DNA of 64,000 nt from Deinococcales bacterium (GTDB lineage: Bacteria; Deinococcota; Deinococci; Deinococcales; JAAFIG01): assembly GCA_013298595.1 (NCBI GenBank), contig JAAFIG010000001.1, forward strand, positions 62,001 to 126,000, read 5' to 3'. Positions 1-64,000 of this stretch are shown piece by piece. A program made the translations under genes and the position numbers. A model generated the notes under the pieces. The model was not told the DNA's origin, searched no databases, and worked only from the letters and a program-made list of their open reading frames with translations. How positions within the stretch are numbered: position 1 is the first letter of the stretch; every line of letters begins with the position of its first letter.

Positions 1-2
1 AT

Positions 3-959
3 ATCTTATTCACCCGTACTTACACTGTGATTGAAAACAAAACCGTTGCTTTAGACAATGCCAATGTCGAAGTGAATTTTGAATTTGGTGATACTGGTGC
101 TGGGCGCTCGTATTATCGCACGGGTTTTGTTGGCAAATACACTTTGCAAAACCCATTAAACCAAGATGTCAATGTCAGTTTTAATTTTCCATTGCCCGCA
201 AATTCTGGAACGTTATCGGATTTTGAATTAAACGCTGCTGGTAAAAAAGTGGAATCCGATGATTTGGCTTCTGGTTTTTACTCATGGCAAGGAAATATTG
301 CTGCTAACGCCAAAATTGAATTTATTGTCAAATATAAAAATCAAGGCTCGAGCACATGGTCTTATGATTTTGGGCAACGCCGCGAACCAATTAAGAATTT
401 TTCGTTAAAAGTTAATTCGCCTCGCAGTATCAAATTTTTGCGTGGCAGTTTATACCCAACCAATCAAGTTGGTCCGCTCGAGTGGAACTTAAAAAATATT
501 ATCACCAGTCAGAATGTGGTACTGAGCTTCCCAGAATTATCATTGCGCGAAACCTTATTAAAACTGTTTCGTTTTGCTGATGCTGCACTGCTGTTAATGC
601 TGGTCTGGGCAATTTTATACGGCATCAGCCGTAAACTCGATCTCGAGCCAAAGCGCTTTGCTTTAGCTGCTCTTGGCATGGCACTTGGCATTGGTGCTGC
701 GGCTGTGCTGCTGGGTTACATTCCATCAACCATTGCCATGTGGATAGGCGCAATTATCGCTGCCATGCTTGGCATATTGGCACTCGGCACCAGTTTTGCC
801 TTACCCGTTGCGCTCTCGAGTTTAGCGCCATTGGCATTCTTGTCGGGCGGTCATGCCGGATTGTGGTTGTTGCTGCTGGCATTGGTGGTTGTCTCGAGCT
901 TACTGCCACGCGATTCGCTTCAAAGATTACAAGGCTTATTACCAAAAGGAAAGCCTTAA
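3..959 (+). CDS. Membrane protein with extracytoplasmic beta-rich domain, 5' end cut by the window
   Basis: The reading frame is open to the left edge of the window, so the true start is missing. A GTG at 27 is internal to the open frame and is not a convincing start. The first ~175 visible residues are polar and beta-rich, with many Asn, Ser and Phe, as in an exported domain. The last ~130 residues hold about four to five hydrophobic segments separated by short basic loops, and the tail is basic (ending KGKP). I do not recognise the family; a CreD-like inner-membrane protein is one weak possibility. Its stop overlaps the stop of the convergent Uma2 gene by 4 bases, with no terminator between them. 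Confidence 0.7.
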   Translation: MLFTRTYTVIENKTVALDNANVEVNFEFGDTGAGRSYYRTGFVGKYTLQNPLNQDVNVSFNFPLPANSGTLSDFELNAAGKKVESDDLASGFYSWQGNIAANAKIEFIVKYKNQGSSTWSYDFGQRREPIKNFSLKVNSPRSIKFLRGSLYPTNQVGPLEWNLKNIITSQNVVLSFPELSLRETLLKLFRFADAALLLMLVWAILYGISRKLDLEPKRFALAALGMALGIGAAAVLLGYIPSTIAMWIGAIIAAMLGILALGTSFALPVALSSLAPLAFLSGGHAGLWLLLLALVVVSSLLPRDSLQRLQGLLPKGKP

Positions 960-1498
960 AACTCGAGTCCGTTATAGATTTGCTCGAGAGTTAACGTCGC
1001 ACCGATACATGGAATATCTATTTCACCTATATCCTCGAGTGTTTCAAGTAACCACGTATTGTCACGGCGTTTGTAAACAACGACCAATCTCGAGTGTTGT
1101 TCGACCAAGATATACCGTTGCACACTTGGTATACGAGTGTATTCAAACAGTTTCTTATTGGTGTCGGTATCGGCTGTACTCGCCGAAACCACTTCGAGTA
1201 GAAAACATGGTGTTTCCTCAACTCGAGGATCATTGTTATCAAGGCAGTTAATCATGATGTCTGGATAACGGTAACGGGTGCTCGAGACTTCTAATTGAAT
1301 GGTTTTGGTTTGGAAACGACAACCTTTGGCTCGAGCAAGCAATGCCAATGCAAGGGTGATGTTCAGAACAATTTCCTCGTGGCGTTTACTCTCCCCTGCC
1401 ATTGCGTAGACTTTGCCATCCACGTACTCATGACGAATCTCGGCAATCATTTCTTGCTCGAGATATTCGGCTACACTCAGATTTGCCAGTTGCGTCAT
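956..1498 (-). CDS. Uma2 family (DUF820) putative endonuclease
   Basis: The 180-residue protein has the Uma2 layout. An N-terminal helical segment contains EIRHEYVDGKVYAM. A PD-(D/E)XK-like core follows, with YPDI (Asp ~118) and FLLEVVS (Glu ~138) as the presumed metal ligands, then the usual C-terminal IYNGLEF-type end. These proteins are numerous in cyanobacteria and some other phyla, and their biological role is mostly unknown. The start is supported by TAAACT exactly 6 bases upstream of ATG, which predicts a leaderless mRNA. It is convergent with and overlaps the preceding gene by 4 bases. The gene is dense in CTCGAG. Confidence 0.85.
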   Translation of the reverse strand: MTQLANLSVAEYLEQEMIAEIRHEYVDGKVYAMAGESKRHEEIVLNITLALALLARAKGCRFQTKTIQLEVSSTRYRYPDIMINCLDNNDPRVEETPCFLLEVVSASTADTDTNKKLFEYTRIPSVQRYILVEQHSRLVVVYKRRDNTWLLETLEDIGEIDIPCIGATLTLEQIYNGLEF

Positions 1499-1528
1499 TG
1501 GTCAAGTTTAGCAGAATTCTTAGGGCAT

Positions 1529-1563
1529 AAAAAAGCGCGAAAGATTTTCTTTCGCGCTTTTTT
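1529..1563. terminator. Bidirectional intrinsic terminator between rpsA and Uma2
   Basis: A 15-base-pair stem (1529-1543 with 1549-1563, GCGCGAAAG core) has a 5-base loop and is flanked by A and T runs. It serves rpsA on the minus strand and could stop plus-strand readthrough. It lies just upstream of the Uma2 start. Confidence 0.85.
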
Positions 1564-1573
1564 TGTGGAAAAT

Positions 1574-3193
1574 TTACTCGCCTTGTTTATCGTCTTTTTT
1601 GCCACCCAAACCAAATTGGGCGAACAGATCAGCGTAAACATCACCAAGTTTAGTGGTAACTTTACCGCCACCTGCGTCGGCATTGGCAAGGTTGCTCGAG
1701 TTGCTCGAGTAATCGTAATCGAATTCGCGTTTCTTGCTGCCTCGAGCGCTACCAAAGTTTGGTTTGCGTTCGGCTGCTGGCACACCGCCAAGGGCGCGTT
1801 TGCGGCTGAGGCTGGCGCGTTGGTCAACTGGGTCTATGTTGAGCACAACAGCTTCGACTTCGTCACCTTTCTTGAATAACTCAGCGGCATTGGTGACGCG
1901 TTCGTTGGCAAGTTCGGAGATATGGATTAAGCCTTCGATACCATCTTCGATTTCAATGAAAACACCGAAATCGGTTAAGCCTGTGACTTTACCTTTGACT
2001 GGTGTACCTGGTGGGTACTTGGCTGGCAATGCACTCCAAGGGTCTGGGGTGGTTTGGCGCATACCAAGGGAAATACGGCGGTCTTTGGTATCCATGCGTA
2101 AGACAACAGCTTCGACTTCGTCGCCTTCTTTAAGGACTTCGTTTGGATGACGCACGCGCTTGGTCCAGCTAAGCTCGGAAACGTGAATCAAACCTTCTAA
2201 GCCGCTCTCGAGTTCAACAAAAGCACCAAAGTTGGTGAGGTTGGTCACTTTACCGTTGACACGTTGACCAATGGTGAATTTCTCCATTGCTGCTGTCCAA
2301 GGGTCTTGCATCAGGGCTTTCATGGATAAGTTAATGCGGTCACGGTCGTTGTCCACATCCATGACTTGAACTTTGACAGCTTCGCCGAGTTTGACCACTT
2401 CTTTAGGGTGTCCAAAACGAGCAAATGTTAATTCGGAACGGTGCACAAGCCCATCCACACCACCAAGGGAAACAAACACGCCAAAATCGGTGATTTCAAC
2501 CACTTTGCCCTCGAGAATACTACCTGGGGCAAGGCGTTCGATGGTTTCTAATTTGGCTTTGTTCTTTTGTTCTTCGATAATGGCACGGCGAGAAATAATC
2601 ACGCGGTTGCGCTTACGATTTAACTCGATTAAACGAACCTCGAGTGGTTGTCCAACAAAAGGTGTTAAATCATTGATGCGGCGCACATCGAGTTGGCTGG
2701 CTGGCAAAAATGCACGCACACCTTCGATATTTGCAACCAAACCACCTTTGACTTGTTCTTCGATATTGACTGTGATGCTAGTAGCATCTTTAACAGCCTG
2801 CTCGAGTTTGCGCCAACCACGATCTTGCTCAGCGCGTTTCTTGCTGAGAATAATAACGCCATTTGCGATATCGCTGCGAACAACATAAGCATCGAGTTTA
2901 TCGCCGGCTTTGAATTGTTCTTGGGCTTGCTCGAGGGTGAGTGCGTCATCGGCGAGTTGATTGAGAGGAATTAACCCTTCGATTTTCGCGCCAACATCTA
3001 CGCTGACACCTTCGCTACCAACAAAAACCACTGTTCCGCTGACAACATCGCCACGGTTTAGTTCGGCAACGCGATCGGCTTCGGACGCAATGACGTCCTC
3101 CATGGTCATGGCTGGGTATTCTTCAACTGCCGCGACAACCGCGACTGGGACTGGGGTTGCTTCTGCAACCGGATTACTAGACGTGTCTTCCAT
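1574..3193 (-). CDS. rpsA: 30S ribosomal protein S1
   Basis: The 539-residue protein holds five S1 RNA-binding repeats at about residues 46-118, 136-204, 224-293, 306-378 and 393-466. The last three carry the classic pattern of DFGVFV/NFGAFV followed by GLIHxSEL. The N terminus is an acidic, Ala/Val/Pro-rich extension. The C terminus is a low-complexity Gly/Ser/Lys tail. S1 binds mRNA on the 30S subunit and helps initiation on structured leaders. The start is fixed by AGGAGG (3201-3206) seven bases upstream of ATG. A sigma-70-type promoter lies ~70 bases further up, and a strong terminator follows the stop. Five repeats is within the family range; the E. coli protein has six. Confidence 0.96.
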
Positions 3194-3259
3194 TCCGAAT
3201 TCCTCCTAAGGATTCTTAGCACTCCTTTAGAGGTTTTCTAAAGAGAACGCAACCTTGGA

Positions 3260-3288
3260 AGTGTACTGCAAAAGCGATACCTTGTAAA
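3260..3288 (-). promoter_or_regulatory. rpsA promoter
   Basis: On the minus strand, -35 TTTACA (3283-3288) and -10 TACACT (3260-3265) are separated by exactly 17 bases. They lie ~70 bases upstream of the rpsA ATG. The leader contains a small inverted repeat (CTTTAGA and its complement, ~3223-3241). Confidence 0.75.
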
Positions 3289-3353
3289 GGGCGAAAATCA
3301 CGTTAAGCAGCGCCTAGGCAAGCATCGCTACTATGTGCGGGTAATATTCGCCA

Positions 3354-3382
3354 TTGCCAGAGCCACATCTGTGTGATACACT
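3354..3382 (+). promoter_or_regulatory. rpmB promoter
   Basis: -35 TTGCCA (3354-3359), a 17-base spacer and -10 TACACT (3377-3382). The -10 is the same hexamer as in the divergent rpsA promoter. The predicted transcript starts near 3389, leaving a leader of ~75 bases before the bL28 ATG. Confidence 0.7.
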
Positions 3383-3392
3383 CCTCAAGTTT

Positions 3393-3408
3393 GACCTCCA
3401 AGGAGGTC
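3393..3408 (+). promoter_or_regulatory. Hairpin at the 5' end of the rpmB leader
   Basis: GACCTCC and GGAGGTC form a perfect 7-base-pair stem with a 2-base loop, right at the predicted transcript start. The right arm contains an anti-Shine-Dalgarno-like GGAGG. Further GGTC/GACC elements follow at ~3414-3441 and could pair alternatively. This may be an RNA-level control element for bL28 or simply a stabilising 5' hairpin. Confidence 0.4.
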
Positions 3409-3463
3409 GGTTCTTGACCCCAAATTGGCATTGGTCAGGGTCACTTTAGTGAGGTTCTTCAAT

Positions 3464-3703
3464 ATGGCAAAAACTTGTGCAGTTAGTGGAAAATCCAGCA
3501 TCGTTATCAACTCCGTCACCCGTCGTGGTAAAGCCAAAGCCGAAGGTGGCGTTGGTAAAAAAACCACTGGTATTTCAAAAGTTCGTAAATACGCCAACTT
3601 GCAAAAAAAGTCGGTCATGGTCAATGGCGAAAAGCAAACCATGTGGCTTTCGGCTCGTGCAATGCGTAAATTGCCAACCAACTGGGTTGTTGTCGCAAAA
3701 TAA
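3464..3703 (+). CDS. rpmB: 50S ribosomal protein bL28
   Basis: The 79-residue basic protein begins [10 protein letters not shown] and carries the bL28 core [20 protein letters not shown] and [10 protein letters not shown]. The pattern RRGKA-x-A-x-GGVG-x-KTTGI closely matches my memory of Deinococcus bL28, a modest taxonomic hint. The frame extends 13 codons further upstream. I chose the ATG at 3464 because it has GAGG (3451-3454) at proper spacing and because family members begin at this point. A sigma-70 promoter and a structured leader precede it, and a terminator follows. There is no CTCGAG in or near the gene. Confidence 0.95.
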
Positions 3704-3719
3704 AGTTACAACAACTGGA

Positions 3720-3746
3720 AAGGACGAAGCTAAAATCTTCGTCCTT
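3720..3746 (+). terminator. Intrinsic terminator of rpmB
   Basis: A 10-base-pair stem (3720-3729 with 3737-3746, AAGGACGAAG) with a 7-base loop is followed by ATTTTCTTT. It lies 16 bases after the bL28 stop. Confidence 0.85.
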
Positions 3747-3759
3747 ATTTTCTTTATCC

Positions 3760-4521
3760 TCAGCGATTGCCCGTAGCAGGTTGCGTAATAGCAGGTGTGG
3801 TTGGTGCAGTAACTGTACTCCTAAGTCGGCGACGGCGACGCGGTGTAGTAGTGGTGGTACCTGTTGTTCCTGAAGCGTTTGTAGTATCCCCTGGTTTTAC
3901 CACTGGTTCTGGAGGCGCAGGTGGTGGTGGAACAGGAATATACCGAATAGCTTCGTTACCAACACCATCCACAGCTCGAACTGTGATTGCTCTGGCTCGA
4001 GAACGCCGAATCACACGATAAAAAGGCACTTCAGGACCTGGTGAAACATTGATTGGTTCGCCATTTAAGAAAACCGTTTGTACTTTGCGATTATCTGTGG
4101 CTTGACCTCGTACCACCACAGCATCTATTTGTGATTCGACATTCTGAATTTCAATCACAGGTTTTTTGGTATCTACTGTCACACTGATATCTCGAGTTCC
4201 TGCGTTACGAGCCGCATCCACAGCGCGGATTTCGTATTTCAAAGCACCACCATCAAGTTGACTGGCAGGAAACTTAAAATTCACAATTTTACGCCCACGT
4301 TGCGAAGCCATTTCGCCCTTGGCAAGTAAATCTAAAGTGCCATTGATTGTTAATTTAACAACACCTTTGTCATCCCAAGCGTACCCTTCGATAACCACAC
4401 TTGAGTTTGGAGTGATATCCGATTTGGGACGAGTAATCACAATTTGCGGCGAAAACTGATCGAGTTCTCGAGTACACCCCAGCAACAGACTTGCCAGTAA
4501 GAAGGCTAATACGTAACGCAC
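3760..4521 (-). CDS. Lipoprotein with two Ig-like/invasin-type repeats
   Basis: The N terminus is a lipoprotein signal (hydrophobic run ending LLLGC; Cys ~16 would be acylated). Two tandem beta-sandwich-like repeats follow at about 25-115 and 118-200, each with a 'V-x-G-x-A-x-D' strand and an 'IRAVDAARNAG'/'VRAVDGVGNEA' end. This resembles bacterial Ig-like domains of surface proteins. The C-terminal ~55 residues are a Pro/Thr-rich linker with a striking RRRRRLR patch, possibly for anchoring to the cell envelope. The start codon is GTG with TATACT six bases upstream, so the mRNA should be leaderless. The exact role is unknown. Confidence 0.7.
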   Translation of the reverse strand: MRYVLAFLLASLLLGCTRELDQFSPQIVITRPKSDITPNSSVVIEGYAWDDKGVVKLTINGTLDLLAKGEMASQRGRKIVNFKFPASQLDGGALKYEIRAVDAARNAGTRDISVTVDTKKPVIEIQNVESQIDAVVVRGQATDNRKVQTVFLNGEPINVSPGPEVPFYRVIRRSRARAITVRAVDGVGNEAIRYIPVPPPPAPPEPVVKPGDTTNASGTTGTTTTTPRRRRRLRSTVTAPTTPAITQPATGNR

Positions 4522-4564
4522 TTGGCTAGTATATAACTCGAGACGATGAGTGAGAACTCATTAT

Positions 4565-5851
4565 TTATAAGTCTCGACGTAACCGCACAGCCACAGCAAA
4601 TGTCAGACTGTACAACACTGCACTGATAATGAAAACAGGTATGTAACTCACTTTATCGGCTAACCAACCACCAATAATGGGTGTAAAAACAGCAATACCG
4701 ACTAAGGTGTTGCTTGTACCAATGAATTTCCCACGCAGCTCGGGAGGTGCTAACGATAAAAGATAATTAGCATTACCAAGCATAATACCTGCATTACCAA
4801 CAGCCTGTGCAACGTAGACCAAAGCAAATGCAATCCCTGCACCTTTTGGCATCAGTAAGGCTAAAACAGGTGCCATAAAAGTAAAACCAAGGGCAATACG
4901 AATAATTCTTCTCGAGCCATAAGCACGCGCTAATTTAGCCCAGATAGCGTTTGAAAGTGGTGCAATAATACCAACAACAATTAAAAAAGTACCAATGGCT
5001 TCTTTACCAACAGCAACATTACGTAGTGCATGGGCTGTAAAAAACGCATCACCAATAGTTGAAGCCGCAAACAAAATACGATACAAAACATAGACACGAA
5101 AATCTGCATTAGCCGCTAATGTTTGCGGAATTGCCAGTAAATCATCCCAAATATTCAACGCTTTAGGTTGTGGTGGATTATCAGGTGGTTCATCAGATAA
5201 TCCAAAAAAATAATAGCCAAAACTAAACGTAATTGCTCCAAACAAAAAAATAAGGGTGTAATCGAATGGAAAAACTAAACTCGAGCCAAGAATTGCTTTA
5301 ATTGCAAAACCAGCACCAAGTGCTAACAACCCACCCCATAAATTACGCGTACCAAAAAACCGAGGTCGTTCCTGAGCTGAAATGGTTTTACCAACACTCT
5401 CGAGCCAAGGTAAACCACTGACACCACTGGCTAAACTATTGGCAATCAAGGCAATCAGAAAAGCAATTAACATCACCTGTGGTGCCTGTGCAAAAAGAAT
5501 TGTAGACAACACAATAGTCGCTAAAGCACTCGAGCGTACAAGACTGGCTGCCCGATACACATCCACTTTTCTTGGAATGTGGCGCACAGCCGCGCTGACA
5601 AAAATTTGTGGCAATAACCACCCACCCACAGCAATAGCAGGTAATAAACCAAGAATCCAATTGGGTGCAGCAAGTGCCGCCGCAAAACTGCTCAACACAA
5701 TGCCAGGATTCAAAAAAGCATCACCCATCGAACAAAACCAGCCGTTAAGCACACCCGCTGCATAAGATCGCGACCATGAAAAACGTTGTTCTAAAGCCTG
5801 AAGAAGCGGCTCGAAGACACCAGCAGATGGTCTATTTGACAAATCAGACAC
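4565..5851 (-). CDS. Major facilitator superfamily transporter
   Basis: The ~428-residue protein has about twelve hydrophobic segments and the MFS two-half layout, with a central cytoplasmic loop (DEPPDNPPQPKALNIWDDLL). Near the C terminus is a PPELRGKFIGTSNTLVGIA segment seen in MFS exporters of the DHA1 type. The open frame extends to an ATG at 5932, but that would overlap the divergent regulator gene. The GTG at 5851 has TATGCT exactly six bases upstream, matching the leaderless pattern of the window, so I start there. The substrate cannot be read from the sequence. The neighbouring MerR-like regulator may control it. Confidence 0.8.
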   Translation of the reverse strand: MSDLSNRPSAGVFEPLLQALEQRFSWSRSYAAGVLNGWFCSMGDAFLNPGIVLSSFAAALAAPNWILGLLPAIAVGGWLLPQIFVSAAVRHIPRKVDVYRAASLVRSSALATIVLSTILFAQAPQVMLIAFLIALIANSLASGVSGLPWLESVGKTISAQERPRFFGTRNLWGGLLALGAGFAIKAILGSSLVFPFDYTLIFLFGAITFSFGYYFFGLSDEPPDNPPQPKALNIWDDLLAIPQTLAANADFRVYVLYRILFAASTIGDAFFTAHALRNVAVGKEAIGTFLIVVGIIAPLSNAIWAKLARAYGSRRIIRIALGFTFMAPVLALLMPKGAGIAFALVYVAQAVGNAGIMLGNANYLLSLAPPELRGKFIGTSNTLVGIAVFTPIIGGWLADKVSYIPVFIISAVLYSLTFAVAVRLRRDL

Positions 5852-5917
5852 AACAAAAGCATACGCCCTAAACGACCTACTACTGCTCGAGTAACAAAAC
5901 CAGTAGAATACATTGTG

Positions 5918-6475
5918 ATGAATCAAGAACAAAAAACCGAACTCAAAGATGGCGTAACCTTAGCCCGTCTTGCCGAAATTGCTGGTACAACCACTGCCAT
6001 TGCTCGCACTTACGACCAAGTGGGTTTACTCGAGCATGAAACCGTAGAAGGTAAAAAACGCTTTCACTTAGCTGCCTTTGAAAGGCTCGAGCAAATACTG
6101 GTGCTCAATACCGAAGGCTTAAAGTTTGCTGACATCCTCAAGCGCTTTGGAATAGATGCTAAAACTGCAGCGCAGAACATGCGAGCCGAACTAGAAACCC
6201 TACAAGCCAGCCTCGAGATCAGTCGTGCAAAAATCAAAGCCATCAGTGAAAAACTAGGGTCTCGAGCTGTGCAACGTGTTAATGAATTAGTGCTCAGCAA
6301 AAAAGAATTAGCCGAACTCGAGCAATTGCGTCAAAGCAACATCCGCCGAGCCTTGTTAGTCGAACAAAAAGCTCGAGCCATTAAAACACAACTCGAGTAC
6401 AAAAATGCTTCCATGTCTGTGACACGAATTGATTTACCGCAAGCCCCAAGAAAATCCAAAAAACGCTTAAATTAG
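5918..6475 (+). CDS. MerR-like HTH regulator with long C-terminal coiled coil
   Basis: Residues ~12-70 resemble a MerR winged helix: a TLARLAEIAGTTTAIARTYDQVGLL helix-turn-helix, then a wing and EQILVLNTEGLKFADILKRFG. It is followed by ~90 residues of charged heptad-like helix, likely for dimerisation, and a basic tail. No ligand-binding domain is visible. A GTG at 5915 directly precedes the ATG at 5918. I prefer the ATG, but the -10 TAGAAT (5904-5909) fits either as a leaderless start. It is divergent from the MFS gene with a very short spacer, which suggests local control. The DinB-PDZ gene follows 10 bases downstream and is probably co-transcribed. Confidence 0.7.
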   Translation: MNQEQKTELKDGVTLARLAEIAGTTTAIARTYDQVGLLEHETVEGKKRFHLAAFERLEQILVLNTEGLKFADILKRFGIDAKTAAQNMRAELETLQASLEISRAKIKAISEKLGSRAVQRVNELVLSKKELAELEQLRQSNIRRALLVEQKARAIKTQLEYKNASMSVTRIDLPQAPRKSKKRLN

Positions 6476-6485
6476 GAGCAGCCAT

Positions 6486-7280
6486 ATGAAAAGCGCGATT
6501 AGTTCGTATTTTATTGGTGATATTGAAGGGTTCACACCGCAAATAGCTCGGTTGCTCTGCCAAATGAATTATGCTCGAGAAACCACATTGCAAATGGTGC
6601 GGGGTCTAACTATTGAAGAGCTTGACTCTCTACCAGACCCAACAGGGAACAGTATTGGCATGTTACTCGAGCATTTTGTAGCTGTAGAAATTGGTTATCA
6701 AGCCATCACATATGGCAATGGCGATTGGACTGCTGCCTTAGGTGAACGCTGGCAAGCAGGTGGCGATTTAGGCGAACTAGGACGCGAAAAAATCAAAGGT
6801 AATTCACTCAGTTATTACTTAGATAATTTACGAGCCACTCGAGAAAAAACCATTACCGAATTCCGTAACCGCAATGATACTTGGCTCGAGGAACCCATAG
6901 AATTTTGGGGAACCACAGGCAACCGAGCCTTTGCATGGTTTCACGTATTTGAAGACGAAATTAACCACCGAGGACAAATTCGTTTAATTGCTAAGCAATT
7001 ACCGCGCTTCCAAAACCGAGGCATGATGGGCATTAACCCAGCTGCTGCCAATAAAGATGGCACTGGTTTTACACTTCTTGAAGTGCGCGAAGGTGGACCC
7101 GCTGCCTTGGCTGGAATTCAAACAGGCGACATTGTTCTTGAGTTTGATGGCATAGATACCACAACCATGTTATTTGATGAAATTCCAGTTGTAAATCAAG
7201 CAGGTGTGACCAGTATTTTCAAAGTTCAGCGTGGTGCTGAAATTCTCGAGGTCAGTGTCACTCGAATTGCTCCAAGGTAA
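6486..7280 (+). CDS. DinB superfamily domain fused to a PDZ domain
   Basis: Residues ~20-175 form a DinB-like four-helix bundle. The three presumed metal-ligand histidines are present: His63 in LLEHF, and His154 and His162 in FHVFEDEINHRGQI. DinB/YfiT proteins are metal-dependent, often thiol-linked (bacillithiol or mycothiol) enzymes. Residues ~185-264 form a PDZ fold (FTLLEVREGGPAALAGIQTGDIVLEFDGIDT), as in HtrA-type proteins. There is no signal peptide, so the PDZ domain would act in the cytoplasm. The start has GGAG upstream. Its position 10 bases after the MerR-like gene suggests one operon. The combination is unusual. Confidence 0.8.
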   Translation: MKSAISSYFIGDIEGFTPQIARLLCQMNYARETTLQMVRGLTIEELDSLPDPTGNSIGMLLEHFVAVEIGYQAITYGNGDWTAALGERWQAGGDLGELGREKIKGNSLSYYLDNLRATREKTITEFRNRNDTWLEEPIEFWGTTGNRAFAWFHVFEDEINHRGQIRLIAKQLPRFQNRGMMGINPAAANKDGTGFTLLEVREGGPAALAGIQTGDIVLEFDGIDTTTMLFDEIPVVNQAGVTSIFKVQRGAEILEVSVTRIAPR

Positions 7281-7281
7281 T

Positions 7282-7344
7282 CTTGTGCTGTTCACCAGCC
7301 AAGAATATGAAGTCAATTTATTTGGTGCCAAAGTGATTGATTAG
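7282..7344 (+). other. Possible coding remnant in the spacer after the DinB-PDZ gene
   Basis: A 20-codon stretch reads LVLFTSQEYEVNLFGAKVID and ends in TAG. It looks protein-like but has no start signal. It may be the decayed 3' end of a lost gene. The rest of the spacer to 7450 shows one CTCGAG and no other structure I can name. Confidence 0.2.
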
Positions 7345-7450
7345 CTTGAGTAACCGAGTCACTCAAGCCATGAAAATCTCGAGCCAACACTGCAATTCAA
7401 AATGTGATTACCATTGCACAACACTGAGATTCTCGAATCACACTTAAACT

Positions 7451-8731
7451 TTAAGGTTTTAATTTTTTAAGTTCAGTTCGTAATTTTATCAGCGCTTGGG
7501 TTTGAACTGTGTTTGGGTTTGAACTTAAATTCTTGGCTTCAAATGGGTCGGCTTGTACGTCATAGAACTCCTCTCGAGCATCCGCAAAGCGAATCAATTT
7601 ATATTGTGCATCTCGGATGGCTTGGGCTTCTATTATTGCGCCTTCTTGTTGCACCGTATTTGCCGCCGTTTTAAAAACTTCTGTGTAGGCATAGGCTCGA
7701 GTTAGTGACTTTCCTTGCAACGCTGGTTGTAAATTTTGTCCGTCTGAATTGCTCAATTTTGCGCCTGTGATGTTGGCAATGGTAGCAGTCACGTCCACAC
7801 CATTGACTAAACCACTGGCTCGGGTGTTGGCTTGTCCTGCCCCTGAAATAATCAGTGGAACAGCAACCCCACCTTGGTAAACACTGCCTTTGGCTCGAGT
7901 GCGATCCGTTGTAATTTGGGTCACTTGGGCTGGTGTGCCATTATCGCCCATGAAAATAACCATGGTGTTTTTCTGATCTATACTCTCGAGTAAACGCCCC
8001 ATTTCGGCATCGAGTGCTTCAGCAGCCGCGAAGTAATAGGCTTGTGGATTGCCGCGAATATCGGCAACAGAACCCGTTAAACTTTGATTGCTGATAAGAT
8101 TTTTTGGTGGCAAATGAAACGGTGAGTGCGGTGCAGTGTACGCCAACCATAAAAACCAAGGTTGCTTCTGTTGCTTGACCCAATTCACAGCTAAGTCGGT
8201 AAAAACAGTGGTTGCATACCGTTCGACTGTTGAAACTGTGCCGTTATTAACCAGCGGGAAAGAATAATAATTCATTAACGATCCCTCGAGAAACCCAGCG
8301 TAATACGGCACGCCCATCTTGGCAGGATGCGTGCTGTCATTGCGAGCAGCCACGTGCCATTTTCCGATCACGGCGCTCGAGTACACACCTTGTTGATTTA
8401 AAGCATCAAAAATTGTTGGTTGAGTTTCGTTGAGCACATCGCCAACCGAGCCGACTTGGGTTCTAAAACCATACTTGCCAGTTAAAACCGTCGCTCGAGT
8501 TGGAGTACAAGTTGGATTAACCCAAGCGTTATCAAAAACAACCCCATTGGCACAGAGCCTCTCGAGGTTTGGCATTTTGGGTTTGTTCTTACCAACGGTG
8601 TAACACGGACTGGCATCAATACCAAAATCATCTGCAATGACCAGCAGCACATTGGGCAGTGTATTTTGTGAAACCGAAGTGGCACTAAAAGTCAGTAGCA
8701 ATACCGTTAGAGCAAGTATAGGACGAATCAT
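7451..8731 (-). CDS. Secreted type I sulfatase (arylsulfatase family)
   Basis: The 426-residue protein has a signal peptide (hydrophobic residues ~4-20). The sulfatase N-terminal metal site is NVLLVIADDFGIDA, with two adjacent Asp ligands. The formylglycine motif is CTPTRA, with Cys75 as the residue converted by a maturase; the C-x-P-x-R core is intact. Further motifs include GKWHVAAR, LAYTAPHSPFHLP and FMGDNGTP (Asp-Asn metal ligands). The C-terminal subdomain is present, so it looks complete and active. It would hydrolyse sulfate esters outside the cytoplasm. AAGGAG lies upstream of ATG. No formylglycine-generating enzyme is encoded in the window. Confidence 0.9.
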   Translation of the reverse strand: MIRPILALTVLLLTFSATSVSQNTLPNVLLVIADDFGIDASPCYTVGKNKPKMPNLERLCANGVVFDNAWVNPTCTPTRATVLTGKYGFRTQVGSVGDVLNETQPTIFDALNQQGVYSSAVIGKWHVAARNDSTHPAKMGVPYYAGFLEGSLMNYYSFPLVNNGTVSTVERYATTVFTDLAVNWVKQQKQPWFLWLAYTAPHSPFHLPPKNLISNQSLTGSVADIRGNPQAYYFAAAEALDAEMGRLLESIDQKNTMVIFMGDNGTPAQVTQITTDRTRAKGSVYQGGVAVPLIISGAGQANTRASGLVNGVDVTATIANITGAKLSNSDGQNLQPALQGKSLTRAYAYTEVFKTAANTVQQEGAIIEAQAIRDAQYKLIRFADAREEFYDVQADPFEAKNLSSNPNTVQTQALIKLRTELKKLKP

Positions 8732-8931
8732 TTTTTTACTCCTTTTGGCACTGTTTGGGGTATTTTCCTCTCTTGAGTTGCGAATGCCAATATCGTCTCG
8801 AGGAAAACCACAGTTTTAGAGCCACCAGAATTTTAATGGATACGAACATTCCAAAAACAAAAATTCTTCTTTGAATTTGCATATTTCTTCAGGCGTATTT
8901 GCACATAAGTCCTCGTATTGTTGACCAACCA

Positions 8932-8948
8932 CAGGTTCTTGCAACCTG
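8932..8948 (+). promoter_or_regulatory. Inverted repeat upstream of the YHYH gene
   Basis: CAGGTT (8932-8937) and AACCTG (8943-8948) flank a 5-base centre, four bases before the AGGAGG that serves the gene at 8964. It could be an operator or an mRNA hairpin next to the ribosome-binding site. The rest of 8732-8931 shows only the sulfatase ribosome-binding site. Confidence 0.35.
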
Positions 8949-8963
8949 AAGGCAGGAGGTTTT

Positions 8964-9902
8964 ATGAATCGGTTGATAAGATTAGGTGGTTTAGCTGCAC
9001 TGGCTTTAATGGCGTGTGCGCCAGCAGGAACAACAGCAGCAACCTCGGGTACGGCTGGGGTACTGTGCGATTACAGCCAGAGCGTGATGAACGATAGTGC
9101 TTCGGTAAATGCCCTCAGTACGGTTAAATGGTCTTGTACCATCACTTCAAGGGTTCTAACAGGCAATGGCATTCCAGATCACGCGGTGGGAACATTTCCC
9201 AATCCTAACAATCCAAATAAAATTTCAGCCCAAAATGTTTCTGCCACGTACACCCTAGCGCCAGAGCAAACCACAACTTCTACGACCTTGGGTGGTCCTC
9301 GAGGTGCATTGGGGTATATGCTCAACGGTGTCAAACTTGACCCAGATACGGGCGGTAGCTGCAACGATGCTGGTGATAACTGCACATTGAATGGCAATGT
9401 TGGTCAATGGCGTATGGAAGCCCTTGGAGGAACATCCTTTAACTTTGGTACGGACAGCAACACTGCTCATGTGCAACCAAGTGGCGAGTACCATTACCAC
9501 GGACTCCCAGAAGGTTACTTGGCTAAATTAAACAAAGGTCAAGCCATGACCCTGATTGGTTGGGCAGCCGATGGATTCCCAATTTACGGGCGTTACGGCT
9601 ACACCACTGCAACCGATGCGACCTCGAGTATCAAAGTCATGAAAGGCAGTTACCGCACCAAAGCCACCCCAGATGCCAACCGCCCTGCAACCACTTTGTA
9701 CGCAATGGGTACGTTTAAGAACGACTGGGAGTACGTGGCTGGTCTAAGCGAACTTGACGAATGCAATGGGCGTACTGGTGTCACCCCAGAATTCCCCAAT
9801 GGCACGTACCACTACTATGCCACTGATACCTACCCATTCTTGCAGCGCTGCGTCAAAGGTAAAGTCGTCAGTACAGGCAATCCACCGCCTCCTGGACGGT
9901 AA
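8964..9902 (+). CDS. YHYH-domain lipoprotein
   Basis: The 312-residue protein starts with a lipoprotein signal (LALMACAPAG; Cys ~18). The YHYH domain is recognised by GEYHYHGLPEGYLAKL, by WAADGFPIYGRYGY, and by C-terminal DECNGRTGVTPEFPNGTYHYYATDTYPFLQRC. Six or more Cys suggest disulfide bonds. The tail is Pro/Gly-rich. YHYH proteins are extracytoplasmic and of unproven function; the His-rich motif suggests metal binding. AGGAGG lies seven bases before ATG. It is the first gene of a five-gene co-directional run and is paralogous to the gene at 11053. Confidence 0.85.
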   Translation: MNRLIRLGGLAALALMACAPAGTTAATSGTAGVLCDYSQSVMNDSASVNALSTVKWSCTITSRVLTGNGIPDHAVGTFPNPNNPNKISAQNVSATYTLAPEQTTTSTTLGGPRGALGYMLNGVKLDPDTGGSCNDAGDNCTLNGNVGQWRMEALGGTSFNFGTDSNTAHVQPSGEYHYHGLPEGYLAKLNKGQAMTLIGWAADGFPIYGRYGYTTATDATSSIKVMKGSYRTKATPDANRPATTLYAMGTFKNDWEYVAGLSELDECNGRTGVTPEFPNGTYHYYATDTYPFLQRCVKGKVVSTGNPPPPGR

Positions 9903-9905
9903 ATT

Positions 9906-11003
9906 ATGACGTTTATCCGTTCACTTCTCGCCCTGCTTTTGACAGCAGGGCTATTTGGCACTGCATCAGCTCATTTGATGGTGGCACAAAAAGGCACGTT
10001 GAACATCTCGGGAAATGGGGCTTATCTGTTGGTTTCCATTCCCACCTCAGGACTCGAGAAGATAGATGATGACACTGATGGTTTGTTATCAACTCGAGAA
10101 CTGAGTCTGCATACCGAAAGTATCAAACAGCAAATTCAAGCGCGTTTACAACTCAGCGATACCGATGGTTTGCGTCCACTCGAGGGACTGATGCTGACCC
10201 TCTCACCAGAAGATGCAAAAGAGGGACAACCTGCCGATCAACTCGTGGTCATGGGTCGATTTGCGCTGGCAGACTCGAATAAACCATTGTCGTTTCAAAC
10301 CAGTTTGTGGGGCAAAAAAGAAACTGAGCAATCCTTGGGTTTAACCATCACCAAGAACCTCAAACAAGAAGAATTGTTGATGCTAACCCCAGAACACCCG
10401 ACAGGGAAATTATACGAACCTGCTCTGAATGTGTTTGTCTCATTTTTACAACATGGTATTGAACACGTTCTGAGTGGATTGGATCATCTTTTGTTTTTGC
10501 TGGTTGTCATTGCCACAGGTTGGGGTTGGAAACAAATCTTGTCTGCCCTAAGTATTTTTACAGTTGGTCATACCATCAGCCTGATGACTGTGGTTTACAG
10601 TGGAATCACTTTCCCAGAAAACATTGTTGAACCTGCCATTGCTGCAACCATTATTGGATTAGCCTTATATGACTTATGGAAAAGCCGCTCGAGTTCAGTG
10701 CAAACTTCTCGAGGACTGCGTTACGGTTTGGTTTTTGGTTGCTCGTTAATTCATGGCTTAGGATTGGGTGGCGCACTGACTTCACTGGGCATCAATCCAG
10801 CCCAACAAGGCGCAACGCTTCTAGGCTTTAACTTAGGCATTGAAATTGCCCAAGTTGGTGTGGCAGTGCTGGCAATTCTTGGATTGGCTTTGCTACAAAA
10901 AATGTTTGGTGATCGCAGTGTGCAAACAGCCTCAACGCTGGCAACCCTGAGCGCAGTTGTCATGGGTGGCATCTGGTTTATTGAACGTGTGATGTTCTCC
11001 TAA
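9906..11003 (+). CDS. HupE/UreJ-like membrane protein with N-terminal exported domain
   Basis: The 365-residue protein has a signal peptide (…LLLTAGLFGTASA-H). An extracytoplasmic domain of ~130 residues follows, with Asp-rich EF-hand-like stretches (DDDTDGLLSTREL, SDTDGLRPLEG). Residues ~165-365 form a six- to seven-helix membrane domain with HGIEHVLSGLDHLLFLL, FTVGHTISL and SLIHGLGLGGAL. These conserved His residues mark the HupE/UreJ_2 family, linked to nickel or other metal transport in some members. Only three bases separate it from the upstream YHYH gene, so the two are surely co-transcribed. The substrate is unknown. Confidence 0.8.
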   Translation: MTFIRSLLALLLTAGLFGTASAHLMVAQKGTLNISGNGAYLLVSIPTSGLEKIDDDTDGLLSTRELSLHTESIKQQIQARLQLSDTDGLRPLEGLMLTLSPEDAKEGQPADQLVVMGRFALADSNKPLSFQTSLWGKKETEQSLGLTITKNLKQEELLMLTPEHPTGKLYEPALNVFVSFLQHGIEHVLSGLDHLLFLLVVIATGWGWKQILSALSIFTVGHTISLMTVVYSGITFPENIVEPAIAATIIGLALYDLWKSRSSSVQTSRGLRYGLVFGCSLIHGLGLGGALTSLGINPAQQGATLLGFNLGIEIAQVGVAVLAILGLALLQKMFGDRSVQTASTLATLSAVVMGGIWFIERVMFS

Positions 11004-11052
11004 AGGGTAACGCGTTTTAGGCTCATCCTCAATCTGCTCAAATCGGAGATTT

Positions 11053-12030
11053 ATGAATAATGCAACAAAATTTTTTGGCTGCACCGTGGTCGCTTTGACT
11101 GCTTTAGCAGTCACCACCAACTCGAGTCATAACACTGTTCTTGCACAAACCAGCAATACCACCAGTACAGCAGGTGTGTTATGTAAGCTCAGTATTAACG
11201 AATTTAACTCGAGTGCTTCGATCAAAAAAACCAGCACATCCAAATGGACTTGTTCTGCCACTGAACGTTTACTGACTGCCAATGGCATTCCAAACCATGC
11301 TGTTGGGACGTTTCCAAATGCCAATAATCCAAATACCATTGCGGAAGTCAAGGTTTCGGCTAAGTTCGCCTTAAAACCCGTATTAACCACCACCGCCACC
11401 ACCCTTGGCGGTCCTCGAGGCGCAATTGCTTATGCCCTGAATGGTGTGAAATTTGACCCTGACACGGGCGGAACTTGTGATGATACTGGCTCGAGTTGCA
11501 GTGCTGCTGGTGGCACAGGCAATTGGCGAATGGAAGCACTTGGACAGAAATCATTTAATTTTGGCACAGACAGCAATGGCGCTCATGTTCAACCAGACGG
11601 TGAGTACCATTATCATGGCATCCCGGAAGATTACTTGGCTAAATTAAACAAAGGCAAAACCATGACCTTGATTGCTTGGGCAGCCGATGGTTTCCCAATT
11701 TATGCGCGGTATGGGTACACCAAAGCCGCCAATGCCAAATCTGCGATTAAAGTCATCAAAGGCAGTTACCGCACCAAAGCCAAAGCAGATGCGAACCGTC
11801 CTGCAACCAACCTCTACCCAATGGGAACATTTAAGCAAGATTGGGAATATGTTAAAGGTTCAGGTGATTTAGACGAATGCAATGGTCGTACAGGAGTTAC
11901 CCCAGAATTCCCCAAAGGGATTTATCATTACTACGCCACCGATACCTACCCATTTTTGCAGCGTTGTGTCAAAGGCAAAGTCACGGTGGCTGCGGGTGGT
12001 CCACCTCCTGGTGGTATGCCCCCAAGATGA
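11053..12030 (+). CDS. YHYH-domain secreted protein (paralog)
   Basis: The 325-residue protein is a close paralog of the gene at 8964. It shares the GEYHYHGIPEDYLAKL, WAADGFPIYARYGY and DECNGRTGVTPEFPKGIYHYYATDTYPFLQRC blocks and the Cys pattern. The exported N terminus differs: a conventional signal peptide ending VLA-Q and no lipobox Cys at the right place. So one copy is probably membrane-anchored and the other released. The C-terminal tail is Pro/Gly-rich. It lies 49 bases after the HupE-like gene and 22 bases before the response regulator. Duplication of the gene on either side of the transporter suggests a functional unit. Confidence 0.85.
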   Translation: MNNATKFFGCTVVALTALAVTTNSSHNTVLAQTSNTTSTAGVLCKLSINEFNSSASIKKTSTSKWTCSATERLLTANGIPNHAVGTFPNANNPNTIAEVKVSAKFALKPVLTTTATTLGGPRGAIAYALNGVKFDPDTGGTCDDTGSSCSAAGGTGNWRMEALGQKSFNFGTDSNGAHVQPDGEYHYHGIPEDYLAKLNKGKTMTLIAWAADGFPIYARYGYTKAANAKSAIKVIKGSYRTKAKADANRPATNLYPMGTFKQDWEYVKGSGDLDECNGRTGVTPEFPKGIYHYYATDTYPFLQRCVKGKVTVAAGGPPPGGMPPR

Positions 12031-12052
12031 TAAACTAAGGAGTGATGTCCGC

Positions 12053-12739: not shown

Positions 12740-12740
12740 T

Positions 12741-19108: not shown

Positions 19109-19147
19109 GTTTTGCGGCTCGAGAAAGTGTATTCTGTTTTTAACAAA

Positions 19148-53760: not shown

Positions 53761-53788
53761 TACCCCTCGAGTTATGGCTCGAGGGGTA
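53761..53788 (-). terminator. CTCGAG-containing terminator
   Basis: TACCCCTCGAG (53761-53771) and its complement (53778-53788) form an 11-base-pair stem with a 6-base loop; each arm contains one CTCGAG. On the minus strand a T-rich run follows, so it terminates the gene at 53812-54263; readthrough from the HD-GYP gene would see no T run. Confidence 0.75.
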
Positions 53789-57650: not shown

Positions 57651-57878
57651 GGATTGTATTCTACCTTGAGTTGACTGGTGCGTACATTTGAAAGCAAATT
57701 GGCTGAGCTACGACTCAAGCATGTGCTCGAGCTTAACGAATTGAACGACAAAACCATTCCTAAATAGCAATTTAATGCCCTAAACCACCAATGCTGTTAG
57801 GTTTTTATTTTATACTTAGATACGACTGGGCAGCTATTGCGTAGCCATTATGAAAAGTGATTGGATTTACAAATGAAT

Positions 57879-57917
57879 ATAAAGCACAATTGGATTGTGA
57901 ACTCAATTGTGCTTTAT
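57879..57917 (-). terminator. Hairpin after the gene at 57949, probable terminator
   Basis: ATAAAGCACAATTG (57879-57892) pairs with 57904-57917 in a perfect 14-base-pair stem with an 11-base loop. It starts 31 bases after the stop of the minus-strand gene. The T run after it is weak. The rest of 57651-57878 shows nothing I can name. Confidence 0.5.
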
Positions 57918-57948
57918 ACAAAAAACAGTTCAAATTTGCAGAAACCAT

Positions 57949-58353
57949 TCAAACATGAAGGTTTTTACAAGTCATTGACACACGCACATAATCTTCGGGG
58001 TCACCTTCATCTGTGTTCACAACTTTTCGATCAAAGCTCACCGTCATACCCTTCTTAACAATAAAGCTGAAGTATCGTTCCCCATCCAGATCTTCGGAAG
58101 TTTCACTAGTACCTTCATACAGACGGATGGAGCCTTTGAGCCGAACATCTCCGTTACCGAGAAGCCGTGCGTCCATGTCTAGTTCTCCGCGCACCTCACC
58201 CCCCACAGCTTCAATGACTTCCAGAAGTTGCTGGAGTTGGTTATCATCGAGTGTTGCTTCTTGTTCAAAAGGAATCGTCCTGCGTTCGTTTGCACCAAAG
58301 ACTTCGTAGTCCGAGAGTTTCATATTGCCTGTCACAACAATCTTGCGAGCCAT
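57949..58353 (-). CDS. Unrecognised acidic 134-residue protein
   Basis: The protein starts MARKIVVTGNMKLSDYEVFG and is acidic, with a beta-rich middle (GEVRGELDMDARLLGNGDVRLKGSIRLYEG) and a C-terminal strand (RYFSFIVKKGMTVSF … VRVSMTCKNLHV). I recognise no family. AAAGGAGGAAGAAA precedes ATG 58353, one of the strongest ribosome-binding sites of the window, so it may be well expressed. A TTGACA (~58401) is a possible -35. The gene and ~1 kb around it contain no CTCGAG, unlike the rest of the window: this may mean transfer or strong sequence constraint. Confidence 0.72.
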   Translation of the reverse strand: MARKIVVTGNMKLSDYEVFGANERRTIPFEQEATLDDNQLQQLLEVIEAVGGEVRGELDMDARLLGNGDVRLKGSIRLYEGTSETSEDLDGERYFSFIVKKGMTVSFDRKVVNTDEGDPEDYVRVSMTCKNLHV

Positions 58354-58836
58354 TTTCTTCCTCCTTTGAGAATGTGGACAAAAAAGCACAATGGCATTTT
58401 TGTCAAGCGAATAATTACACCGCACCTACGGCATAATCCCCTTATTGCAGTTGTTTGACCGCAATTTGATGGCGTTTTAATACCTACGTAGAACGGCAGA
58501 GCAGGCGATGAATATTGCCAATAGATTACGACCTGTCACGCTACACAACCTACGACTTCTATTTAGCTTTGGTTTCTTTTATCATGATTTTCTGTTGTCA
58601 TGCCTAAGATCATACGGAGCAGCCGTTGCGTCGCCGTTGCGAAAATTTTTTGATACGTGAAGGACAAGTTTTTCGGGGTATTCTCCTGAAAAGTCTAGAG
58701 CATTTCTATGCCGTTAATTTTTTTATTCGTATTAGTTTCTGCCTATGCTCGAGCCTTGATAGCGATGATTATTGGGCAAATCTAATGCAACATGTTACCT
58801 GATATCTTTTGTATCCTCGGGTAATGTGTTGTTGGT
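58354..58836. other. ~480-base spacer without a gene
   Basis: Apart from the ribosome-binding site and possible -35 of the gene at 57949, I see no ORF with support, tRNA fold or terminator. One CTCGAG lies at ~58747. The sequence has irregular codon-like patterns only. Confidence 0.5.
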
Positions 58837-59498: not shown

Positions 59499-59510
59499 AA
59501 CAAGGAGCTT

Positions 59511-60632: not shown

Positions 60633-60811
60633 TGCCTCAAAAACCATTTGCAAACCTGTGGGTCAGATACCAAATATGTTCAAACTATTTGTTTAATGTT
60701 TTCTGTATTTGACACAAGCCTTACTACAAACTGCAAAAAGTAATACTCGAATTAGCTATTACTTATACTAATCCGCTCGAGGACAATATTTTTGAGTGTG
60801 GTACTTTTTAG

Positions 60812-63800
60812 TCAATCTATAAATAACTCGCCAAAAGCAGTTTGTAAATCTGGGTATCCAATGAGTGAATCTGTCATCTCGAGCATCAGTTTTTTTGTGG
60901 CTCGCTGAAAATACTGATACTTTTTGGCAGATGTGTTTTCAAGTATTTTAAGCAGCACGTACCGAAGCTTGAGCGTACTTGGGTTTGCTGGGCTTGATTG
61001 CACAAGTTGCAATGCCTGTACGACATCCCCAGAGGTTTTCGAGATTATCTGTCGCTGCAACTCAAATTTCCAGAAACGCCACTGGTCTTCTGGAAACTTA
61101 GAACTGCGAAGTGGTTCAAGCAGCACTTTAGCTTCATTTATGTTGCCAGACCAAAGCAGGTATTTCACTTGAACAAATCGCAAATCGGTCTGTTCGTTAT
61201 GTTCAGCTAAGCTCTTGAATTCCAGAGCGTTTGCAAGGTGAGTTTGGCTGGCATGTCGGTCTTTGCATTTGATAGCACAGCGTAATAAGCCTGTCTCGAG
61301 CGAGCAATAATACGCTTTGCTTTGAACATGTTGGGCATGTTGCAAAGCAAGCTGAAAATGTTGCTGTGCTTGTTGCGTATCGCCCAAGTCAAGTAAAAGT
61401 GTCGCCAGACGACGCAAAGCAATAATTTCTGCGACAGCACTGACTGTTTTAGCGAGTTTGAGGGCGTGTTGTGCGCTATCTAAAGCTGTTCCTAATTGCC
61501 CTTGGATGTTTTGCAACCGCGCTTGCATAAGTAGCAATCGAACAAGGGTCAACTTGTCATCACTTTGTACTGCTAATGTCATGGCATGTTGAATGTTGAT
61601 CTCTGCTTCTACCCATTGCCCAAGGCGAATCTGGTTGTAACTAAGCCACATTTGTGCGTATAACTGCTCGCCAACCCTACCGATTTGCATGGCTAACGCG
61701 AGTGATTCTTGAAGCATTCTGGTTGCACGCAGCACTTCACCTTTAATCATTGCAATACGTGCCATTCCTGTGGTCGCGCCGAGTTTTCCAGACACACTGC
61801 CAAATCGCACGGCAATCTCCATCTCTCGAGCCACGTGGTATTCGGCTACTGCCACTTCGCCTTCGTAAAGTGCAATGACACGCAAACACGAATGGATTTC
61901 AGCATGGGTGCTTGGCTCGAGTAAGTCCTCGTGTTTCAACGCATCAGACAGGTCGTGCTTACCAGTAGATAGTTCACCTAACCGAAACCAACCGATACCA
62001 CGTTCTAGCCACGCCCAAGCCAAATCTTGAGAAGATAAGTTGTGTTGTGCAAGCAAGGTATCTATGGTGCTTATGGCTAACCGATACTGCCTAGTTTGAT
62101 TGAGATGCTGAGCCAAATGTAATTGTGCAAGTACCTGCCATTGCAGGTTCTGGAATTCTAAGGCGAGTCGGTTCATCTCTTCGAGGACAACGCTGCGCTC
62201 TTGTGACAATCCAAGTGCTGTCATTACACGCACTTGATCTTGATAAAGCGTAAATAAATCCTTGCGATTAGCAAACTGCATTGCCATTCGGTATTGCTCG
62301 AGAGCTTGGTTATGAGCATAGACTTGTTCGGCTTGCTTGGCAGCTTGGATACGCCACGGCACGGCTTTTTGTGCGTTTCCAGACTGCTCCAAGTGCCCTG
62401 CGATTCGTGCAGCGTCAGCGTTGGTTTGCTCGAGTGATACAGCCAGTTTGCTATGAATCAGGCGTTGCCGCTCGAGACTGAGGGTGCTTTGTAGCGCAGC
62501 TCGGGTAATTTCATGAACAAATCCGTAACCAGATTCGCGTGCTATGACAATATGAGCTTGTACTGCTTGCTCGAGTCCTTCTAGGCTTTCCCATTCACTT
62601 AGGGCTGTGGCAGGTTGGATATCTTCGAGGCAAAAACCATCTTGGCTTAAAGCCGCTGTTTCAAGCAAACGCTGGGTTGCTTTACCAAGTTTTTCCACAC
62701 GCTGCAACACAGCCCGACGTACACTCGGGGCAATACCAGTATCAGCATTGTTCTCAAGCCAGTGGCGTAAGGTTTCGCAGATGTAAAAGCTATTGCCAGC
62801 AGTAGCAGTGAACAGATTTTGGGCAAGATCAGCATTCGCATTGATACTGTTAGCAAGTTGCTGCACTTCAAGTAACGATAGTGGCTCGAGGGGAAAATTG
62901 GTTAATAATTGGTCTTGGCGCAGTATTTCGAGCAAATCTTGGGTTTGGTGGCTGAGTTCTTCGGGACGAGCAGTTGCTACTATTCGCCAAGCATCGGGTT
63001 CACCCATCACACGACGCGACAGATGCGCCAATAACTCGAGGCTACTGTCATCTGCCCAATGGATGTCCTCAAAAATAATTATATTCGTGACGCAACAAAG
63101 CACCACTTGTGTTAAACCCTCAAGAAACACCCGTCGTTCTTGAGCAGGGCGTTTTGGGGATTTTGGTAACAATTCTGGCATTAAACGAGCTGCCTCGAGT
63201 TGCCAAATCGCTTCGAGCGTATCAAAACGCTCTCTGATTTCAGGGTTGTTCAAAGCTTGACGCAAACTTTCAGCAATGGCATAAAACGGTGTTTGGCTCG
63301 AGACTGCTTTGAATTGCACACGCAAGGCTTGAGGGGCGAACACCTCGAGTAAACGGGTTTTACCAATACCTGCTTCGCCTAACACAAGGGTCAGTGGGGT
63401 TAAGCTACCCTCGAGCATAGCCAGTGCCACAGTGCGACCAACAAATGGTGCCACCCAAGTTGGTGCCACCAAAACCTGTGCTGATTCAGCTGACTCGAGT
63501 GGGCTGCTGCGTTGTGCTAGGCGTATTTGTTGCGCCAGTTGTAGTGTGATAGGCAAGGGTTCTAAACCAAGTTCGGTGTGCAAAATCCGTTTGCATTGCT
63601 CAAATTGGCGCAATGCGGCTTCGCGTTGCCCAAGCAAATGCTGTAAACGCATGACTTCGCGGTGCTGGGCTTCTTGTAATGGATCGATTTGTAGTACAGC
63701 TTGGTGCAATTCCAAAGCGCGTGTCCAATCTCCTTTGGTTTGAAAACACTCAGCAAGCTCGAGTTGCAGGTGTTTACGCTGTTCGCTTAAACGCCCGCGC

Positions 63801-64000
63801 CACTGCTCGAGCCAAGCATCAAACATAGGCATGGGTTCAACCCGAAGTTCGCTAAGTAATTCACCACGGTATAACTCGAGGGCAGTTTCTAAATTACCAT
63901 TTTTAACTGCCGCTTCAAATAACTGCACATCGGTGTTAAGCCCATGTTGTAGACACACTTGGTCTTCAGGGGTTTGTAGTACATCGCGCAGACCTGCCTC
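60812..64000 (-). CDS. BTAD/AAA-ATPase/TPR transcriptional activator (SARP-like), N terminus beyond the window
   Basis: The frame is open to the right edge, so the N-terminal part, where a winged-helix DNA-binding domain would lie, is missing. The visible ~1060 residues begin with a BTAD domain (LETALELYRGELLSELRVEPMPMFDAWLEQWRGRL … HREVMRLQHLLGQREAALRQFEQCKRIL). A STAND-type AAA ATPase follows (Walker A TLVLGEAGIGKTRLLEVF; Walker B NIIIFEDIHWADDSSLEL), and then ~550 residues of TPR-like helices. No LuxR-type HTH at the C terminus. Such proteins are large signal-integrating activators; targets are unknown. Confidence 0.88.
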   Translation of the reverse strand, partial: EAGLRDVLQTPEDQVCLQHGLNTDVQLFEAAVKNGNLETALELYRGELLSELRVEPMPMFDAWLEQWRGRLSEQRKHLQLELAECFQTKGDWTRALELHQAVLQIDPLQEAQHREVMRLQHLLGQREAALRQFEQCKRILHTELGLEPLPITLQLAQQIRLAQRSSPLESAESAQVLVAPTWVAPFVGRTVALAMLEGSLTPLTLVLGEAGIGKTRLLEVFAPQALRVQFKAVSSQTPFYAIAESLRQALNNPEIRERFDTLEAIWQLEAARLMPELLPKSPKRPAQERRVFLEGLTQVVLCCVTNIIIFEDIHWADDSSLELLAHLSRRVMGEPDAWRIVATARPEELSHQTQDLLEILRQDQLLTNFPLEPLSLLEVQQLANSINANADLAQNLFTATAGNSFYICETLRHWLENNADTGIAPSVRRAVLQRVEKLGKATQRLLETAALSQDGFCLEDIQPATALSEWESLEGLEQAVQAHIVIARESGYGFVHEITRAALQSTLSLERQRLIHSKLAVSLEQTNADAARIAGHLEQSGNAQKAVPWRIQAAKQAEQVYAHNQALEQYRMAMQFANRKDLFTLYQDQVRVMTALGLSQERSVVLEEMNRLALEFQNLQWQVLAQLHLAQHLNQTRQYRLAISTIDTLLAQHNLSSQDLAWAWLERGIGWFRLGELSTGKHDLSDALKHEDLLEPSTHAEIHSCLRVIALYEGEVAVAEYHVAREMEIAVRFGSVSGKLGATTGMARIAMIKGEVLRATRMLQESLALAMQIGRVGEQLYAQMWLSYNQIRLGQWVEAEINIQHAMTLAVQSDDKLTLVRLLLMQARLQNIQGQLGTALDSAQHALKLAKTVSAVAEIIALRRLATLLLDLGDTQQAQQHFQLALQHAQHVQSKAYYCSLETGLLRCAIKCKDRHASQTHLANALEFKSLAEHNEQTDLRFVQVKYLLWSGNINEAKVLLEPLRSSKFPEDQWRFWKFELQRQIISKTSGDVVQALQLVQSSPANPSTLKLRYVLLKILENTSAKKYQYFQRATKKLMLEMTDSLIGYPDLQTAFGELFID

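Follow-up and report, generated by a model that had tools for sequence, protein, structure and literature searches.

CTCGAG is a clade-wide, HIP-like iterated palindrome of extreme density in Deinococcota

The highly iterated palindrome HIP1 (GCGATCGC) of cyanobacteria was first described in 1995 and is, to our knowledge, still without a proven function. HIP1 reaches densities of 0.3 to 2.7 per kb, all highly iterated palindromes of cyanobacteria have a matching methyltransferase, and the cyanobacterial words GGCGCC, rCCGGy, and GCsGC were prominent in single strains (Elhai 2015, PMC4390886). Other short words dispersed far above chance, some of them as inverted-repeat pairs, are the uptake sequences (DUS/USS) of Neisseriaceae and Pasteurellaceae; the described uptake words are longer than a hexamer, nonpalindromic, and present in about 1,500 to 2,000 copies per genome (PMC1939737). 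Here, we analyzed a 64,000-nucleotide stretch of a Deinococcales genome (hereafter, the window), together with the remainder of that genome and its relatives, and found CTCGAG to be a real and extreme iterated palindrome that extends across a clade of uncultured bacteria outside cyanobacteria. Like HIP1 and the alternate HIPs, CTCGAG is hugely overrepresented genome-wide, in coding and noncoding DNA, and is patchily lost or replaced in relatives. In contrast to them, it is a different word in a different phylum and an exact 6-mer, its range takes in an entire family plus some members of a sister family, and it reaches 5.9 to 7.7 copies per kb, such that a genome at 5.9/kb is 2 to 20 times denser than one carrying HIP1. 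It also differs in that copies closer than 21 bp are underrepresented, and in that we found no vertically conserved methyltransferase among five Pfam families; the HIP1 core CGATCG itself has just 3 copies in the window. Relative to DUS/USS, CTCGAG is shorter, palindromic, and more than ten times more frequent. The XhoI/PaeR7I restriction-modification systems recognize the identical sequence, but restriction sites are normally depleted whereas CTCGAG is enriched. The Dam site GATC, likewise palindromic, has a density in E. coli similar to that of CTCGAG here, yet GATC is near the expectation for a 4-mer, whereas CTCGAG is enriched ~30-fold. In agreement with the preliminary description of this DNA, we found no published account of CTCGAG in such a role, nor any report of its overrepresentation in Deinococcota, in the open-access literature searched (most subscription papers lie outside it).

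The window (positions 1 to 64000) contains 374 copies of CTCGAG, i.e., one per 171 bp, as against 13.1 expected from base composition (order 0) and 6.15 ± 2.56 (maximum, 12) in 100 dinucleotide shuffles, corresponding to average excesses of 29-fold and 60-fold, respectively. The 13 copies previously counted in positions 1 to 1500 (the first dense run, 347 to 1462) and the 24 in the open reading frame at 19112 to 21337 (cluster at 19118 to 21258) were exact upon recounting, and the previous expectation of 0.2/kb is right for an order-0 model; the accompanying claim of a 40- to 50-fold excess holds for these two dense stretches, but not for the window average. The largest gaps between copies, measured from start to next start, are 1,066 bp (2930 to 3995) and 1,022 bp (57726 to 58747). 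An order-4 Markov model, which had been proposed as a check, proved uninformative, "expecting" 320 copies in the window, solely because nearly every CTCGA and TCGAG there lies within a CTCGAG. Across the whole genome (4,582,226 bases in 68 contigs), the count was far above expectation, at 27,159 copies (5.9/kb), versus 15 copies of the reversed-word control GAGCTC. Order-0 observed/expected (O/E) ratios were 20 to 30 in five genomes, which places CTCGAG at or above the genome-wide excess of ~20-fold used to define HIP-type words.

What repeats is the hexamer alone, its flanks being close to neutral; an extended consensus was considered and rejected, as the surrounding bases show weak preferences, part of which recur around control palindromes. 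Variants that differ from CTCGAG at one position occur at nearly background levels; a modest surplus of transitions, seen at each of the three positions, fits slow decay. As previously stated, the word lies in both coding and noncoding DNA: coding copies in the window occupy all three reading frames (197/79/61), noncoding DNA carries 5.1 copies per kb in the window and 5.5 per kb in a sample of 864 kb, and the density stays level across gene starts and between genes. An artifact of composition, codon pairs, or amino acid usage would be conceivable given that sampled Thermus-like genomes carry CTCGAG near or below the level predicted from codon usage. However, synonymous shuffling of the window retains only ~1/9 of its coding copies (the observed number being 9.5-fold over shuffles) and noncoding DNA carries the word at the same density, so that such an artifact is ruled out for practical purposes. 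The spelling of proteins also argues against it. Leu-Glu pairs are written CTCGAG in 67% of cases in a 464-kb sample, versus 1.7% predicted from codon usage elsewhere, and in 67 to 78% of cases across the saturated genomes (defined below), versus 2 to 9% expected. In the latter genomes, the Leu-Glu dipeptide occurs at 2.1 to 2.5 times expectation and Glu-Leu at 1.0 to 1.1 times, and the share of CGA among Arg codons is 0.75 to 0.89 within the motif context versus 0.07 to 0.16 elsewhere. From the Leu-Glu excess and these spelling biases, we conclude that CTCGAG has altered amino acid sequence; with one dipeptide more than doubled, protein sequence here gives way, strikingly and genome-wide, to a constraint at the level of DNA.

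We assessed conservation in 20.8 kb of alignment (73% identity) between the source genome (G000) and its congener (G001); the RelA/SpoT gene (28098 to 30428, plus strand) lies within the segment used to fetch the homologous DNA of relatives. Within this alignment, CTCGAG was intact at 67 of 108 aligned sites (62%), versus 21% for all hexamers and likewise 21% for hexamers matched to it in composition, making it the best conserved of the 143 hexamers with enough data. This shows that CTCGAG is maintained, by selection or by biased repair. Whether isolated sites are better conserved than clustered ones was also considered, and no trend was apparent over 115 sites. The resemblance to HIP1 drawn in the preliminary description is thus right at the level of pattern, i.e., an iterated palindrome that is genome-wide, independent of codon usage, and conserved.

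Judged by ribosomal protein S1, the source genome has its closest relatives among metagenome-assembled genomes of Deinococcales. CTCGAG saturation proved common to all four genomes of the family (5.9 to 6.5/kb; sampled GC, 0.45 to 0.60). In a sister family, densities were 6.2 to 7.7/kb in one genus (g11), 3.6/kb in genome G008, and 0.3/kb in G004, and no further genome reached 4/kb or more among the 111 Deinococcota genomes examined. The saturated genomes are G000 to G003, G012, and G016. We labeled two other genera Meiothermus-like (g13) and Thermus-like (g7), assignments suggested by GC, family structure, and the like. In the Meiothermus-like genome G015, the excess was less pronounced though still real (56% of Leu-Glu pairs versus 10% expected; 4.2/kb in noncoding DNA), and none was found in Thermus-like G007 or in G004. 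Comparing the gene content of the saturated genomes with that of word-poor relatives (G004, Thermus-like) makes the question of function testable.

Spacing between copies was analyzed in 864 kb of G000 and in samples of three relatives. Pairs of CTCGAG less than 21 bp apart fell short of expectation by a factor of roughly 1.5 to 8, with the strongest deficit at the shortest distances; the pooled pair correlation for the four family genomes was 0.0 to 0.7 below 21 bp and ~1 from 21 bp onward. The deficit was mostly over by 21 bp, with a milder one extending to ~70 bp in G000. As a control, random hexamer sets of equal density gave 1.01 ± 0.05 at 6 to 14 bp. Generic coding inverted repeats of similar GC were only mildly depleted (0.66 to 0.99), and the emptiest spacings in G000 were those of 6 to 8 bp (0.13), which are unable to form a good hairpin; therefore, hairpin avoidance is at most a partial cause of the exclusion, and was rejected as its sole cause. 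We detected no clear signal of helical phasing. The exclusion may instead represent the footprint of a bound factor. The role of a protein-binding site suggested in the preliminary description fits short-range exclusion better than does a plain methylation site, with the protein itself still putative.

Something in these cells probably recognizes CTCGAG. Our tentative reading, to which we assign somewhat less than an even chance, is that the word is an alternate HIP in a new phylum, a genome-wide recognition word whose copies are docking sites held by selection. A putative sequence-specific DNA-binding factor, possibly a nucleoid-organizing or a DNA-repair/licensing protein, would dock on each CTCGAG with a footprint of ~20 bp, or about two helical turns; selection would then maintain a usable site about every 170 bp, with no gain from copies spaced less than ~20 bp apart. 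We adopt this reading because the word is enriched, conserved, imposed on codons and proteins, level in density across gene starts and intergenic DNA, and kept at about 6/kb despite large differences in GC, and because it combines exclusion below ~20 bp with the lack of a vertically conserved methyltransferase in the five Pfam families searched. Several points count against docking: (i) the weak flanking preferences are partly shared with control palindromes; (ii) close pairs in intergenic DNA are less depleted, and about half of them are terminator-like stems, although 20 pairs remain versus ~51 expected once these stems are removed; (iii) stationary enrichment alone is compatible with biased repair or conversion as well as with selection; and (iv) the conservation test covers the above 20.8 kb only.

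The intergenic pairs also bear on a different explanation, in which competence machinery prefers CTCGAG and recombination spreads the word without any function at the site. Uptake words are typically dispersed and in part arranged as inverted pairs, and here 18 of 38 close intergenic pairs form extended stems. Natural competence is moreover common in Deinococcota. Nevertheless, we consider such an uptake or biased-conversion word quite improbable, as it gives no reason for the exclusion below 21 bp and the described words are longer, nonpalindromic, and far fewer than the ~27,000 copies of CTCGAG (PMC1939737).

To address methylation, we searched 21 genomes for five methyltransferase Pfam families (PF07669, PF01555, PF00145, PF02086, and PF02384) and compared the matches. 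The methyltransferases of G000 include one next to a NotI-like nuclease, a distant TaqI-like (TCGA) methylase (L075), and an HhaI-like C5 enzyme; none from the five families has an ortholog in the congener or the family. The XhoI-type nuclease (PF04555) was found in 0 of 4 family genomes. Gene content thus lends no support to a plain methylation site, one of the roles listed in the preliminary description. A more elaborate scheme follows Elhai's model for HIPs, in which the old strand is tagged by a methyltransferase specific for CTCGAG or TCGA, and the word arises and persists through methyl-directed mismatch repair. Consistent with it are the methyltransferases that match every cyanobacterial iterated palindrome (PMC4390886), a CTCGAG density that suits the need for strand marking, the TaqI-like methylase of G000, and the existence of m5C methylation of CTCGAG in Halorubrum (PMC8112702). 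Likewise, G015, with its weaker excess, carries a methylase (L059) that is 48% identical to one in G009 (L055/L053) adjoining an XhoI-like nuclease gene broken by in-frame stops, and no XhoI nuclease match was found in G015. Against this scheme, the G000 enzymes of the five families lack the orthologs that vertical inheritance would leave, and one adjoins a NotI-like nuclease; strand marking would not lead one to expect the exclusion below 21 bp; and the surplus of single-base variants falls on transitions at each of the three positions. We therefore regard methylation-directed repair as unlikely. The methylase gene adjoining the NotI-like restriction nuclease gene is at L089:1399-3245 (G000:C34).

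The saturated genomes also share a strong avoidance of other palindromes that is not seen in G004 or G008: 8 to 18 other palindromic hexamers have O/E below 0.1, and pooled O/E is 0.36 to 0.62, versus 0.69 to 0.94 in relatives. GGCC is almost missing (3 versus 214 expected in the window; 20 versus 1,467 expected in 464 kb of G000), CCGG is strongly depleted in the window, and avoidance of both was evident in samples of G000, G001, and G003. Such avoidance is a sign of strong restriction pressure. A first scan of viral sequences was flooded by GC-rich phages, and an AT-flanked pattern then isolated one convincing phage; a further candidate (L407) was discarded as only a local cluster. The tailed-phage contig thus obtained (L426; IMGVR_UViG_3300049491_000613, positions 1 to 13581), which carries terminase (TerL), SU10-type portal, and RecT genes, has 84 CTCGAG in 13.6 kb (6.2/kb) and one GGCC. 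It probably infects the saturated clade, judging from the match in composition and palindrome avoidance; a search of the 21 genomes for its terminase yielded no homolog. Short-range exclusion is absent from the contig (12 gaps under 21 bp versus 7.4 expected), which counts against a simple footprint rule.

The phage and the avoidance pattern raise the alternative that CTCGAG signals self, in a Chi-like manner, to a defense or end-processing nuclease, with host and adapted phages accumulating the word. A polysaccharide-biosynthesis island in G000 (L204:10000-20000; G000:C34:70000-80000), of lower GC (0.34 to 0.38) and likely acquired recently, is mostly devoid of CTCGAG, which counts in favor of such a scheme, but it persists in the chromosome despite its few copies. 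Known Chi sites, moreover, are asymmetric and much rarer than CTCGAG here. We hold a self mark to be quite improbable, and favor the docking of a DNA-binding factor over methylation-directed repair, self-marking, and uptake drive, in descending order of probability. A broader version, slightly less probable than docking itself, is that the whole clade and its phages write CTCGAG every 170 bp as an address code for a putative non-methyltransferase DNA-binding reader, with selection biasing the proteome. If true, the phylum, hitherto not known to have any HIP system, would possess one that is independent of methylation. An independent and denser HIP-like word with a measurable exclusion distance, from an unrelated phylum and with no shared methyltransferase of the five families, renders the question testable.

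Two minor observations concern individual loci. The open reading frame at 19112 to 21337, which holds 24 copies of CTCGAG, resembles a family-B DNA polymerase gene, here in a Deinococcota genome. Pairs of CTCGAG form the stems of terminator-like intergenic inverted repeats at L201:16818, L212:4841, and L207:11704, as well as at 53766 to 53783 in the window, where two copies 12 bp apart form the extended inverted repeat TACCCCTCGAG-TTATGG-CTCGAGGGGTA.
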